From positions 1 through 42,833 of IMG/VR virus record IMGVR_UViG_3300049855_000410: DNA of 42,833 nucleotides; one strand, written 5' to 3'. The notes beneath the pieces are model-generated. The model was not told where the DNA came from. It was given only the letters and a program-made list of their open reading frames with translations, and ran no database searches. The position numbers and the translations under genes are program-made. The stretch's first letter is position 1; the number at the start of each line of letters is the position of its first letter. This document shows positions 10,544 through 41,490 of the stretch, piece by piece. Source of the stretch: a virus.

Positions 10544-10619
10544 TGGGGAGTAGCCAAGCTGGTAAGGCAGCGCACTGTTAATGCGCCCAGCGCAGGTTCG
10601 ACTCCTGCCTCCCCAGCCA
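10544..10619 (+). tRNA. tRNA-Asn (GTT)
   Basis: A full cloverleaf can be drawn. The acceptor stem TGGGGAG pairs with CTCCCCA (7 bp), the D stem is GCC/GGC, the anticodon stem GCGCA pairs with TGCGC around the loop CTGTTAA, so the anticodon is GTT, and the T stem is GCAGG/CCTGC around TTCGACT. The discriminator is G (10616) and CCA is encoded (10617-10619). It reads Asn codons AAC and AAU, which are common in the fibre and capsid genes. It lies inside the replication operon, three bases after the stop of the preceding gene. Confidence 0.93.
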
Positions 10620-10758: not shown

Positions 10759-10824
10759 TTGTTGTATCATAATAGCATACGATCGTACGCTAATTGGATA
10801 CAATCGGATACAAAAGGATATAGT

Positions 10825-12549
10825 TTGGTATTTGAGCCATATGTAGCAATTGACCTTGAAACCACAGGATTAGATCCACGGAAGGATTCTATTCTTGATT
10901 GTTTTTTATCGTACGATGGGGATACATACGAAACGCTACCCCTTGCAAATTTAGCAGAAATAGCAAATATTGCTAAGGGTCGGAGACTGCTGTTTCATAA
11001 CGGGAAATTCGATCTACATTTCTTGTATCATAGAGGCATTAATTTGGTTAATTCAAATTGGCGCGATACTCTGCTATTACACCACCTATTAGATGAAAAT
11101 TTACAACACGATTTAGACTTCCTGATTAAGAGGTATTTTAAAGATGATTATAAAGAAAAATTTTGGGCCAAATATAAAACGTACGATGAAGCGCCTATTG
11201 ACGAAAAGCGGGACTATGGTGGCAAGGACGTTATGTACACTTATCGTCTCTACCATGCGTTACAGGAGGCTCTCCAAATTGACGGTATTCCTCCTTCGCT
11301 TATACAACACGTACATAGGCTTGCTACTTCTCTTCTTCAAACCGAAATTGAAGGGATCGCGGTCGATCTTCAGTATCTACAAGAAAAAGGGATAGCGCTT
11401 AAAACAAGAATAAACCGATTACAGACCGATATGCGAAATTTAGTGGAGACTGAAGTTGAAACTATTGAAATGGATCTTTGGATGGCTGAGCTTTCTAAAC
11501 GTAAAACGGAAAAAGGAAAATCCAACGTACGACGACCCGTTTTTTCATTCGACAGCTCAAAACAACTATCTACGCTCTTATATGATATTCTTAAACTCCC
11601 CTTACAGCGAAATGATAAAACCAAATCCGTCACAACCGACGATGCGGCGCTCCAAAAACTTGAGGATCGTCACGAGGTTTTACCTCTAATCAGAGAATAC
11701 CGGGAAATCCAAAAAATTTATGGAACCTATGTCGAGGGCATCCTAGAACGCCAAGTGGACAGTAGAGTATACCCGGGTTTTAATGTGGCCGGCACTACAA
11801 CCGGACGTATAAGCCACTCAAACCCTAATCTTGGGAATATGCCAGCCGAGGGAGGGCTACGCGGCATGTTTCTTGCTTCCCCTGGTTATAAACTAATTAG
11901 CGCCGATTATTCTCAATTAGAGATCTGTTTAGCTGCCCATTTTTCACAGGATAAGAACCTATTAGATATAGTACTTAACGGTAAGAGTCAGCACGATATT
12001 ACGGCCCAATCTTTGGAGATACCGCGTCAAAAAGCTAAAACTTTGAATTTTGCCGCTCAATATGGCTGCTCAGCCTTTAAAATCTCTAAAATACTTAGTA
12101 CATCTATTAAAAATGCTGAAGAGCTTTATACGAAATATTGGGATACATATAACGGTCAGAAGAAGCTAATTGGCGAATGTAATGCAAAAGTAGACGCCGG
12201 ACAAGCAATTGTGTCGCCGTTTGGCCGCAAACGCCGCTTTGAAAAGAAAACAAAAAGGCCTCCTTGGGATAGTGCCTATAGACAATCTTATAACGCGCTT
12301 ATACAAGGCACTGGGGCCGATTTAACAAGTAAGTCGTATTACATCATATCTGAAGAACTACGAGAGAAAAAAGACGGTCGCGGACTATGGACCGTTCACG
12401 ATGAGGTTCTAATCGAAGTGCGGTCGGATAAAGTGGATTATTATCGTAGACGCCTACAAGAGATAATGGTAAGCTTAGGCAGAGAGATAAAGTTAACGGT
12501 TCCACTAAGCGTGGAAGTAAGCGAAGGGAGCGATAAATGGGAAGACTAA
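10825..12549 (+). CDS. family A DNA polymerase with 3'-5' exonuclease
   Basis: A 574-aa replicative polymerase. The exonuclease domain begins at once with IDLETTGLD (Exo I) and continues with LLFHNGKFDLHFL (Exo II). The polymerase domain has motif A SADYSQLEICL, motif B RQKAKTLNFAAQYG (Phe rather than Tyr at the ddNTP-selecting position) and motif C TVHDEVLIEV. There is no 5'-3' exonuclease domain, as in T7-like polymerases. No ATG precedes the exonuclease motif. I choose the TTG at 10825, behind AAAGGA with a 6-base gap; the frame is open to a TTG at 10759, inside the upstream hairpin. It would copy the genome with the helicase and primase encoded downstream. Confidence 0.9.
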   Translation: MVFEPYVAIDLETTGLDPRKDSILDCFLSYDGDTYETLPLANLAEIANIAKGRRLLFHNGKFDLHFLYHRGINLVNSNWRDTLLLHHLLDENLQHDLDFLIKRYFKDDYKEKFWAKYKTYDEAPIDEKRDYGGKDVMYTYRLYHALQEALQIDGIPPSLIQHVHRLATSLLQTEIEGIAVDLQYLQEKGIALKTRINRLQTDMRNLVETEVETIEMDLWMAELSKRKTEKGKSNVRRPVFSFDSSKQLSTLLYDILKLPLQRNDKTKSVTTDDAALQKLEDRHEVLPLIREYREIQKIYGTYVEGILERQVDSRVYPGFNVAGTTTGRISHSNPNLGNMPAEGGLRGMFLASPGYKLISADYSQLEICLAAHFSQDKNLLDIVLNGKSQHDITAQSLEIPRQKAKTLNFAAQYGCSAFKISKILSTSIKNAEELYTKYWDTYNGQKKLIGECNAKVDAGQAIVSPFGRKRRFEKKTKRPPWDSAYRQSYNALIQGTGADLTSKSYYIISEELREKKDGRGLWTVHDEVLIEVRSDKVDYYRRRLQEIMVSLGREIKLTVPLSVEVSEGSDKWED

Positions 12550-38490: not shown

Positions 38491-38754
38491 TTATCGGCCG
38501 AGAGCAATTACCTGTCCCATGCGGGTAGCGGCTGGATTAACAAAAGCTAGAGTAATAATGTTATCAGCGAAAGTAGGGGCGGCGGTAAGTGTTAAGCCTG
38601 AAACAATGCACCAGTCAACGCGAGCAAGACGGTCGCAGGTTACAGAACCTGAAGTATCGCCAGAAGCGACAGTGATGTCGATCAATTGTGCTTTAATAGG
38701 TCCTACTGAAAATGATCGGCCTTCATTTGAAGCATTGGATTGGGAAAGTGCCAT
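38491..38754 (-). CDS. small beta-rich protein (87 aa), decoration-type
   Basis: An 87-aa beta-rich protein (SGSVTCDRLARVDWCIVSGL). It has a strong AGGAG site. It is the first gene after the 38755-39207 control region, so it leads the portal-capsid operon. It may be a head decoration or assembly protein; no family certain. Confidence 0.5.
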   Translation of the reverse strand: MALSQSNASNEGRSFSVGPIKAQLIDITVASGDTSGSVTCDRLARVDWCIVSGLTLTAAPTFADNIITLAFVNPAATRMGQVIALGR

Positions 38755-39033
38755 TTTATTCTCCTTGCTTGGTGTTTAAGTCCACCTTGCGACTGAAAGG
38801 GGGCGTGGGGAGCTGAGTTTTGCTCGGCTTTATCCCACGACCGCTTTCTTTGTTATTAGGGATAATTTCATATGTCCCCCTATATACTATCCGGTCTATT
38901 GGGGACAATTATACAGGCCTTTAGATTTTTATGTGTATTTACTTGCACATAAATGCCCGTAGCTAATTTATTTAATAGTAAATTGGAGCGGTGTCTATTT
39001 TACTTACATTGCGGCTTAGTAAAGCAATCGTTA

Positions 39034-39106
39034 ATTATAGCATTTCTTAATAAACTATACTAAACTAGGGTAAACTACCCTAAACTCAGTATAACTCTAA
39101 ATTATA
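39034..39106 (-). promoter_or_regulatory. leftward promoter region of the structural operon
   Basis: TATAAT occurs on the minus strand at 39106-39101 and 39039-39034, flanking the phased repeats. Only poor -35 matches are seen, e.g. TTGCAG at 39132-39127 with 20-base spacing, so an activator may be needed. A third TATAAT lies at 38913-38908. Confidence 0.4.
39051..39090. repeat. four phased 10-bp repeats (TAAACTNNNN)
   Basis: TAAACT occurs at 39051, 39061, 39071 and 39081, exactly one helical turn apart, followed by ATAACT at 39091. The second and third repeats also form AGGGTA/TACCCT (39067-39081). Probably binding sites for a cooperative regulator or iterons of an origin. Confidence 0.65.
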
Positions 39107-39136
39107 CCTGACCAAATTGTAGCATACTGCAAGATG

Positions 39137-39184
39137 GTCGTGACTATTTCGGGATGTAGTCCGAATTAGTCGCGACTATTCCGG
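39137..39184. repeat. 16-bp direct repeats with inverted repeat, next to terL
   Basis: GTCGTGACTATTTCGG (39137-39152) and GTCGCGACTATTCCGG (39169-39184) match at 14 of 16 positions, 32 bp apart. GACTATTTCGG (39142-39152) is nearly the reverse complement of CCGAATTAGTC (39161-39171). Confidence 0.6.
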
Positions 39185-39207
39185 AGTCAGATTCCAAATT
39201 AGTCAGA

Positions 39208-41490
39208 TTAATAATCCCCAAAAGGGTCTTTAGATTTGGGCTTACGGAGCTCTTGCATTTCGCGCATTATTGCTCCAGTTAAATTGTCCTGTTCTAGCTG
39301 TTTCTTCAATTTATCCTCAGGCTTAGGAGCTTCTGGTCGAGACATAATCATGTATCTAAAACTGTCGCAATTAGAGACTAATATTCCCTCTGCATAATAT
39401 TCAGAAACACCTGCAATCGCTAAGTTGTAAACCTTTTCTTCTCCTATGAAGCGCTTTTGCTTTACAGTTAGGGTGGAAGAATTTAGACCGTCGTGAAAAC
39501 TCTGGTTTAACGCGGTATTCTTTATTGCAAACCAAGCAGAGCTTAGTAACTTTAGGTATTTTTGCCCTTTTCTCAGCCACTTGCTTAGAGTGTTTCCTAT
39601 GCCATTCACGCCCTTCTTGGGATCGATGCCATTCAAGTGTAAGGGGACGGATGCTTGCCAAATGCTGCTTTCCTTTTTCGGATTTTGACCAAGAATCTGC
39701 TCTTTGAGCATGTTCTGATAGGTGTTTGAATCCCAGAATGCATTCCAAGTTTGATAAGTCATTGTTGTCGGTATTACCGTTTTTGTGGTGAATATGGTGT
39801 CCTGATGGAATAGCCCCGTTAGCGGCTTTCCAAACCTCTCTATGCAGAGATTCAACGCCTTTTTGGCAATGTGTTCCATTTGCGCGGTAGTATCTACCAA
39901 CTTTCCTAAATAAAATCCCGTTAAACTCGATAATTTGAACCATGAGGAAACATTAACAGCAGTATCGTTAAGAGTCAAGTCGTGAATATTAACTCTTTTT
40001 CCCTCTAAGGTTAAAACCGGATGATCTGGGGTACTAATTAATCTTGCTCCATTGGTAAAAACATATTCCCATACGGGTTTAACTCCAACACAACGAGATG
40101 CCAGCACTTTTTTTGGCCCCAACGAAGTTAATATCGTATCTCCAACACGGATATCTTTGATATATTTAAAACCAACTACGGTGCTTATCTTTGTATCTCC
40201 TACAAAACAGGCGTGATCATTTTTCTTTACGGGAGTTTCCTTCAAGTTCTTGTTCATTTCTTGTCCGGGTTGCAATTCTTCGTATCGATACTGAGTCATT
40301 TCTTCAATTAAATTTGAACATGTATCAAAAATATAAACGGACGGCTTTCCAGTGCGGTCGTTAATTTTTAAATATTGTTTAACTCTGTCAATCCCGGCTT
40401 CAACCTCGTTATTGGCTGGAATAAGCGCCCATTCTTTTGGAAGATGATCCAAATAAGTTTGAAAATCCGAGTCTTTACCTCGATTGGCGCGTGTAGATGG
40501 GTCGATCCAAATACCTTGAATCTTATCCTTACCGTTTAGAGCTATTATTCCCTTTTTCCCTTGTTTTTTATTGCCTTTACAAATCTCTTCAATAATCCAC
40601 TCACGCTCATAAAACTCTCGGTAAATATAAACAGTTCCGTCATAGTCCATTGCGCCCCATAATACCGCTGTAGGGTTCCGAAATCCGTGATCCAATCCGC
40701 AAAACCTAGGCCACTCATCTGGAATTTTAAACGGCTTAATTACATGCACGTCCCGTCTAAACTCGTGATATATCTGACCTGAGAAAGAATCGAAGGAAGC
40801 GTAGATTTCCCGCTCTATACGGTCTTTAGAATAGGAATCTAGCATAGACTGGACGTACCCCTCAGGGAGGAAAACATTCTCAGTAGAGGGCGCTTTAATG
40901 AGTCTAAAGGCCTTTCTAGCTTCAAGGCTCAATCCATCCTGTTTTACAAATAGCTGATACTGCCAATCGTGCCCAGCTGGGTTCGTGGTCATGTAGATTT
41001 TACGTACATGTGCGCCTCTCAACCGGCTTTGCAATAGTAAAAATGCTTCCTGGCTTACTTGGGAGCTTTCATCGATGTAGGCCGCATTCAGATTCAATGA
41101 TCTTAGTTTATCTGGTTCGTCGATACCGCGAAAAATTACATTACTTACCTTACCGTTAGAAGACCTGATGCGTATAATCTGATCCGCAACCCTATCTTCC
41201 ACTATAAGCTCTTTAGGGCAAATATCCCTAAAGGTCTTCATGGTAGTAATCTTAAGCTCTGGGTTAAATAGCCTACACACTAAGTAGTCGCCCGGATATA
41301 ATACGGCCAGGGAAAGAGTGGTAAGACACCCGATAGTGGTCTTAGCGCTACCTACTCCACCGGCATAAAGAACATACTTAGGGCCAGAAGGATTAACCAC
41401 GCAGTCAAAAAACTGTTGTTGTTTGGGAAGGAGCCTTTTAGGCGACCCATCTGGAGGAGAAGGCAGGCAATCTACGAGATTAATTTTCAT
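39208..41490 (-). CDS. terL: terminase large subunit interrupted by an intein
   Basis: A 760-aa precursor that packages DNA into the head. The extein has Walker A GGVGSAKTT (residues 44-52), Walker B YIDES (Asp140, Glu141) and three RNase H-like nuclease Asp motifs: GLDHG (Asp267), WIDPS, and the DHA/CDSFRY motif that is split by the intein. The intein covers residues 428-707. Joining DHA to CDSFRYM restores the canonical C-terminal motif, and the spliced protein would be about 480 aa, normal for TerL. Without splicing the nuclease active site is broken. The start overlaps the previous stop region and has a weak binding site. Confidence 0.9.
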   Translation of the reverse strand: MKINLVDCLPSPPDGSPKRLLPKQQQFFDCVVNPSGPKYVLYAGGVGSAKTTIGCLTTLSLAVLYPGDYLVCRLFNPELKITTMKTFRDICPKELIVEDRVADQIIRIRSSNGKVSNVIFRGIDEPDKLRSLNLNAAYIDESSQVSQEAFLLLQSRLRGAHVRKIYMTTNPAGHDWQYQLFVKQDGLSLEARKAFRLIKAPSTENVFLPEGYVQSMLDSYSKDRIEREIYASFDSFSGQIYHEFRRDVHVIKPFKIPDEWPRFCGLDHGFRNPTAVLWGAMDYDGTVYIYREFYEREWIIEEICKGNKKQGKKGIIALNGKDKIQGIWIDPSTRANRGKDSDFQTYLDHLPKEWALIPANNEVEAGIDRVKQYLKINDRTGKPSVYIFDTCSNLIEEMTQYRYEELQPGQEMNKNLKETPVKKNDHACFVGDTKISTVVGFKYIKDIRVGDTILTSLGPKKVLASRCVGVKPVWEYVFTNGARLISTPDHPVLTLEGKRVNIHDLTLNDTAVNVSSWFKLSSLTGFYLGKLVDTTAQMEHIAKKALNLCIERFGKPLTGLFHQDTIFTTKTVIPTTMTYQTWNAFWDSNTYQNMLKEQILGQNPKKESSIWQASVPLHLNGIDPKKGVNGIGNTLSKWLRKGQKYLKLLSSAWFAIKNTALNQSFHDGLNSSTLTVKQKRFIGEEKVYNLAIAGVSEYYAEGILVSNCDSFRYMIMSRPEAPKPEDKLKKQLEQDNLTGAIMREMQELRKPKSKDPFGDY
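39370..40209 (-). mobile_element. intein (280 aa) inserted in the terL nuclease motif
   Basis: Starts at Cys428 (CFVGDTKISTVVGFKYIKDI, Hint block A), has block B STPDHPVLT, block F KVYNLAIAGVSEYYAEG, and ends ILVSN followed by Cys708. The usual penultimate His is a Ser. The Hint parts amount to about 89 residues at the front and 30-50 at the end, i.e. a mini-intein; the middle encodes an HNH gene in another frame. Boundaries are clear because the flanks join to a conserved TerL motif. Confidence 0.9.
39401..39943 (-). CDS. HNH homing endonuclease nested in the intein, different frame
   Basis: A 180-aa protein fully inside the intein, in the -1 frame relative to terL. The core LHREVWKAANGAIPSG and HHIHHKNGNTDNNDLSNLE is a textbook HNH_3 domain with the H-H, N and second H-region residues, followed by WHRSQEGREWHRKHSKQ and a C-terminal zinc-finger-like CLVCNKEYRV with a later NCKAKALHRRR. 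A stop codon lies four codons upstream, so the ATG at 39943 is the only plausible start. It has no Shine-Dalgarno sequence. It would cut intein-less terL and drive homing. The overlap of about 540 bases with the intein frame is the striking point. Confidence 0.8.
   Translation of the reverse strand: MVQIIEFNGILFRKVGRYYRANGTHCQKGVESLHREVWKAANGAIPSGHHIHHKNGNTDNNDLSNLECILGFKHLSEHAQRADSWSKSEKGKQHLASIRPLTLEWHRSQEGREWHRKHSKQVAEKRAKIPKVTKLCLVCNKEYRVKPEFSRRSKFFHPNCKAKALHRRRKGLQLSDCRCF

Follow-up and report, generated by a model that had tools for sequence, protein, structure and literature searches.

In the usual teaching, an intein is a single polypeptide that has two activities. The closest precedent for an endonuclease gene in another frame of its carrier is the ShiLan domain: phage DNA methylases carry this 'hidden' HNH insertion out of frame, without a splicing domain (PMC11855218, Genes 2025), and it was also reported in phage Applejack (PMC12613952). 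Bifunctional TerL inteins are found in mycobacteriophages, and several of them splice and cut in vitro (PMC5050341). Free-standing HNH homing endonucleases of PHROG 15471 are located next to terL. A further arrangement, reportedly described by Dassa et al. in 2009, is the fractured gene in which a free-standing endonuclease separates the two halves of a split intein. A preprint from the same group as the ShiLan paper is said to deal with actinobacteriophage inteins of 'non-canonical architecture'. Dassa et al. 2009 is cited in PMC8228797 and PMC10448857, and the preprint, which is cited for overlapping frames in PMC11855218, may hold related cases.

The window analysed here is the whole 42,833-nucleotide stretch of a viral record (IMG/VR IMGVR_UViG_3300049855_000410). 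Like ShiLan, its terL gene carries an HNH gene out of frame (third frame) within an open phage gene and without a detectable ribosome-binding site. However, ShiLan lacks a splicing domain and is believed to remain in the methylase, whereas the HNH gene of the window is surrounded by a complete intein, so that the carrier is predicted to be excisable. The host protein also appears different, and so does the HNH family, as judged by tblastn against phage records. The locus shares with the mycobacteriophage inteins a TerL host and the combination of splicing with a homing endonuclease, whose activity is inferred in the window; the mycobacteriophage activity corresponded to an endonuclease domain within the intein (PMC5050341), whereas that of the window is assigned to a separate overlapping gene. 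The mycobacteriophage inteins are all inserted in the ATPase domain (PMC5050341) and the window intein in a motif of the C-terminal nuclease domain. A bifunctional (large) intein has its endonuclease in frame in the same polypeptide, which the window does not fulfil because its HNH gene is in the -1 frame. The order of N half, separate endonuclease gene and C half is that of fractured split-intein genes, but their host lies in two ORFs, whereas the window has one continuous ORF with predicted cis splicing. The free-standing endonucleases of PHROG 15471 belong to the same protein family as the window HNH but, unlike it, lie outside inteins.

Table 1. Features of the terL locus in the window.
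Feature	Position	Strand	Remarks
terL precursor ORF (TerL + intein)	39208..41490	-	760 aa; stop 39208-39210; Pfam Terminase_3 E = 5.9e-20
N-extein	40210..41490	-	TerL ATPase and most of nuclease domain; ends ...PVKKNDHA
Intein, 280 aa	39370..40209	-	C1...N280, then Cys+1; from splicing motifs, Pfam, AF2 model
N-terminal splicing half	39946..40209	-	Block A CFVGDTKI, block B TPDH; pLDDT about 95-98
Region upstream of HNH ATG	39944..39961	-	No Shine-Dalgarno; in-frame TAA four codons before ATG
Intein-frame linker, apparent -1 shadow of HNH gene	39475..39945	-	Stop-free; pLDDT mostly 44-58
Nested HNH endonuclease gene	39401..39943	-	180 aa, ATG start; -1 frame relative to terL
HNH_3 catalytic motif	39740..39847	-	Nested-protein residues 33-68; H34, H52, H53, N61, N65 present
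Zinc-ribbon-like motif of HNH protein	39464..39538	-	C136, C139, C160
C-terminal splicing half	39370..39474	-	...KVYNLAIAGVSEYYAEGILVSN; HNH 3' end overlaps down to 39401
C-extein	39211..39369	-	CDSFRYMIMSRP...

The window terL was one unbroken ORF on the minus strand, and residues 1-427 of its product form a terminase large subunit. The initial annotation had placed an intein at 39370-40209, with an HNH gene in the -1 frame of a stop-free intein frame and no visible Shine-Dalgarno sequence before it. The intein boundaries were exact, running from the codon of Cys428 at 40209 (CFVGDT...) to the end of the Asn codon at 39370 (...LVSN/C), and 39401-39943 lay inside the single 760-codon ORF. Cys1 and block A were present, block B (TxxH) was present as TPDH, and the terminal Asn was followed by Cys+1, as inteins require. 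The penultimate His was absent from the window intein, with Ser in its place (SN, not HN), and the block F His was also missing. A penultimate His is common but not universal in inteins, and the SN end occurred in 29 of 109 family members among the matches listed. Pfam Intein_splicing matched the window intein at E = 4e-5, under its curated cut-off. The AF2 model of the intein reached a pLDDT of about 97 in both splicing halves and fell to about 50 across the linker. It matched solved inteins, with E values down to 9e-7 for the gp41-1 intein 6riz (TM 0.86 by target length). On this model the Hint fold is present and the linker is predicted to be mostly disordered. The predicted ligation product of the exteins, DHACDSFRY, resembles the uninterrupted terL sites DHLCDALRY and DHLCDQLRY. 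No close relatives of the whole TerL-intein were found in viral contigs. Downstream of terL there is a 430-bp gap (38780-39207), which contains a palindrome (39160-39185) and, on the minus strand, a hairpin resembling a terminator (39083-39065). A plus-strand tRNA gene (10544-10616) shortly precedes the DNA polymerase gene at 10759-12549.

A protein search with the 180-aa product, which the initial annotation had suggested, gave a clear HNH endonuclease, with matches to Pfam HNH_3 (PF13392; E = 4.4e-14, 52.3 bits against a cut-off of 24.8) and to PHROG 15471 (HNH endonuclease; E = 4e-21). All family-invariant catalytic His and Asn residues were kept. In the zinc ribbon, Phe at 156 replaced the near-invariant fourth Cys, with His at 157. 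The AF2 model of the HNH protein had a mean pLDDT of 94.7; the alignment for structure prediction was built from the window and fetched loci only. When this model was used in a fold search, I-HmuI ranked first without being significant (E = 0.25), and a PDB sequence search with the HNH profile returned one weak unrelated match only. Synonymous-codon shuffling of the HNH gene gave P = 0.010 for an open intein frame across it in the window alone. The best relative of the window copy had 47-48% protein identity, and since no close relative exists, selection was measured on relatives only. The protein's own activity is likely but unproven, in view of the SN end, the changed zinc ligand and the missing close relative.

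The same arrangement was found by tblastn of the window HNH against phage records in three unrelated phages, Rhodobacteraceae phage MD07, Acinetobacter phage Highwayman and Tetrasphaera phage TJE1. In each of them an open TerL intein holds the HNH gene in its third frame, and the records annotate TerL only at that place, the nested gene having been missed by automatic annotation. Scans of viral and genome contigs gave at least 168 HNH-family loci in at least 139 clusters at 90% nucleotide identity. These scans were motif-based, so the counts refer to the matches listed and the frequencies are no census. Among the matches listed, 99 of 139 clusters had the same offset as the window with the covering frame open, and both intein ends were detected in the covering frame in 90 of those 99. 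The other out-of-frame offset (+1) was used by 10 of the 139 clusters, none had the HNH in frame with the host, and the 30 that were not open include HNH genes standing free next to terL as well as terL genes that are fractured, with the intein split. The exteins around nested HNH genes mostly matched terminase families. Among the matches listed, catalytic Cys1 was present in 104 of 106 inteins with a detected N-terminal half, and nearly all family inteins ended in xN/C or xN/S.

As an intein-side sample that avoids choosing loci by HNH, viral contigs were scanned for DNA of the intein end EYFANG[IVM]LV. An HNH gene of this family was nested at the same offset in 77 of 80 such loci (70 of 73 clusters) among the matches listed, and the other three loci were two mini-inteins (133 and 136 aa) and one cut by the contig end. 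The intein frame was open across the HNH gene in all 65 testable clusters, against 8.4 expected from synonymous-codon shuffles. The motif was derived from known nested cases and only the matches listed were counted, so this is a strong association and not a census. It is confirmed that the nested arrangement is not due to chance, and the strong evidence for this is comparative (99 independent loci among the matches listed). The data support nesting as the usual form in EYFANG-type TerL inteins and not as an oddity of the window phage. The overlap proves to be common in many phages, where it is actively maintained, and has barely been described.

The initial annotation had proposed comparing codon conservation in both frames. 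In 17 pairs of relatives, two of which are near-duplicates of each other, pairwise dN/dS was mostly 0.1-0.4 in the HNH frame and mostly 0.1-0.6 in the N-terminal splicing half, and the same overlap bases read in the intein frame gave a pooled dN/dS of 1.05. Of the substitutions between close relatives, 61% affected third positions of HNH codons. Neither outcome that the initial annotation had named as refuting was observed: the 180-aa product does have HNH homology, and it is the HNH frame that relatives conserve, the intein-frame reading of these bases being the one that drifts. The low ratios of the HNH frame and the splicing half, together with a ratio near 1 for the overlap in the intein frame, indicate that the nuclease and the splicing domain are selected. 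As far as these substitutions tell, the linker appears to be a shadow of the HNH gene without constraint beyond freedom from stops, and the AlphaFold confidence pattern (HNH 94.7, splicing halves about 97, linker about 50) agrees with this reading. Nested HNH genes had no stops in the intein frame against 2.2 expected. In free-standing HNH relatives the intein-equivalent frame had a mean of 6.2 stops and the third frame 18.3. The preference for the -1 offset is thus explained by the HNH family yielding about three times fewer stops there than in +1.

No Shine-Dalgarno sequence precedes the window HNH ATG at 39943 (TGCTGTTAATGTTTCCTC-ATG), and no sigma-70-like site that could serve as a separate HNH promoter was found upstream on the minus strand when 38700-40300 was scanned. 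In the nested clusters (matches listed), a stop closed the HNH frame upstream of the domain (median distance 33 nt), and the short space between held an HNH-phase ATG in 96 of 109 clusters against 27 expected. A Shine-Dalgarno core preceded 32% of those ATGs; the rate was 10.6% for HNH-phase ATGs of the extein upstream (Fisher p = 2.6e-7) and 36% for ordinary downstream ORFs. This enrichment of ATG and Shine-Dalgarno sequences makes internal initiation the best general route. Because the window copy has no Shine-Dalgarno sequence, its own expression route is not settled, and frameshifting is a rival.

Related states of the element were also found. In the fractured terL genes, TerL-N with the intein N half is followed by the HNH gene and then by a short ORF that encodes the C half plus the end of TerL. 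Nine loci were assigned to this layout (L011, L059, L074, L075, L080, L146, L148, L162 and L169), among them Lactobacillus phage CL2 and, as a probable case, Vibrio phage 1.245.O. On a Methanimicrococcus MAG contig (L143:2809-4188), a lone stop divides the N half and nested HNH from a C half that continues in the same frame; this may be a terL fractured only recently. At two loci (L071 and L152) a free-standing HNH gene lies just downstream of an uninterrupted terL with the motif DHLCDALRY or DHLCDQLRY. In a quick tree of the HNH family the nested, fractured and free copies were interspersed (22 changes; 24 starred branches), which means that the states interconvert, with the direction unresolved. 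An unannotated HNH gene of the family lies between terL and portal in Brevundimonas phage Poludnitsa (L013:2471-2992), and free-standing members lie just downstream of terL in the Yuavirus phages SN1 (L171) and PAE1 (L012). A terL ORF of 1578 codons (L002:1900-6636) appears to hold three inteins, with a nested HNH in the third.

Other inteins were sampled by a control scan for the canonical intein end HNFxANG, which gave at least 80 inteins. Among the matches listed, these comprised minis, in-frame LAGLIDADG (9), in-frame HNH-like (7, weak) and nested (9) inteins; the in-frame HNH-like calls rest on weak profile scores. No in-frame homologues of the window HNH family were found in inteins among the matches listed, and since the pipeline does report in-frame HNH-like and LAGLIDADG inteins, in-frame cases are not simply invisible to it. 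In nine loci (L308, L311, L316, L317, L318, L342, L344, L349 and L352) a different endonuclease was nested at the +1 offset. Pfam assigned five of them to HNH PF01844 (two slightly under cut-off), three to DUF559, which we take to have a Vsr-like nuclease fold, and one to LAGLIDADG_2 (E = 3e-34). The hosts checked include TerL, SNF2-type helicase and UvrD-type helicase. The intein frame contained no stops in these nine cases against 8-17 expected (P below 1/2000 each).

We therefore regard the window locus as very probably a terL intein with a mini-intein splicing domain, in which the homing endonuclease is encoded separately, by an overlapping gene with an internal start in the -1 frame over the linker. 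The sequences by themselves show both ORFs with their domain identities, the avoidance of stops, the enrichment of start codons and, in relatives, purifying selection on both; they also show the recurrence and the free-standing and fractured alternatives. By this mechanism, straight reading of terL would give a TerL-intein precursor, whose splicing halves would fold around the stop-free disordered linker, excise and join DHA/CDSFRY, a junction that is a conserved nuclease-domain motif of TerL. Ribosomes starting at the internal ATG (39943) would produce the nuclease (HNH, 180 aa); its cleavage of uninterrupted terL genes would let homing copy the whole element. An in-frame gene with its own stop codon would truncate TerL, so the HNH gene has to lie in another frame, and the intein frame has stayed free of stops. 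Splicing, internal initiation in the window phage, target-site cleavage, homing and separate regulation are inferred, with no experiment behind them. The proposal of the initial annotation that splicing and homing are two overlapping genes is supported as a reading, with both activities inferred. Its suggestion that the nuclease can be lost separately is borne out by mini-inteins without HNH (L186 and L204) and by free-standing copies beside intein-less terL.

Several other explanations were weighed. The window HNH could be a decaying remnant, open through inheritance and inactive now, as its missing Shine-Dalgarno sequence and the Phe in place of a zinc-ribbon Cys would allow; this is unlikely, because its catalytic residues are intact, its 180 codons are open, its fold is confident, and the chance openness of the intein frame is only P = 0.01 by codon shuffling. 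It is rather improbable that the HNH protein serves mainly DNA packaging and is kept for that and not for homing. Free-standing family members do adjoin terL or terS, and HNH proteins that aid cos cutting by terminase are known (PMC10448857), but nesting in inteins at several terL sites, the patchy presence and the interspersed states of the tree point to homing, as do DUF559 and LAGLIDADG endonucleases likewise nested in helicase inteins. We give little credit to a fusion made by programmed -1 ribosomal frameshifting from the intein frame instead of internal initiation. Such a fusion would fit the -1 offset of 99 of the 109 nested clusters and the window ATG without a Shine-Dalgarno sequence. 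It does not fit the closure of the HNH frame shortly upstream (a median of 33 nt before the domain; in the window, four codons before the ATG), the excess of ATGs (96 of 109, 27 expected) with enriched Shine-Dalgarno sequences, or the use of the +1 offset by 10 clusters (all counts among the matches listed).

Two further explanations can hardly be maintained. An in-frame HNH intein disguised by two compensating indels or sequencing errors could account for a single case, but it is already refuted by the same offset in 99 independent loci among the matches listed and in three named phage genomes, and the HNH gene owns a start and a stop. HNH genes often reside in group I introns, which would favour such an intron as the carrier here, but intein motifs are present at both ends and the insertion is open in frame. 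A group I intron was also rejected in a search of the window with Rfam, where no intron matched and the tRNA was the sole match.

Beyond the window, we consider it probable that out-of-frame endonuclease genes are a recurrent phage route for joining splicing with homing, and the dominant one in EYFANG-type TerL inteins. They would have several origins (zinc-ribbon HNH_3, HNH PF01844, DUF559/Vsr-like and LAGLIDADG_2; hosts TerL and SNF2- and UvrD-type helicases) and would bridge free-standing endonucleases and fractured split-intein genes. With a single DNA segment encoding the two activities as distinct proteins, the nuclease can be produced, discarded or replaced while the splicing domain is untouched, and the nuclease gene is protected inside an essential gene. 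These loci also form an extensive natural collection of long overlapping genes on the same strand, where selection acts on the protein of one frame and, in the other frame, mainly against stops. They offer a testable route for the interconversion of free-standing endonucleases, nested inteins and split inteins.
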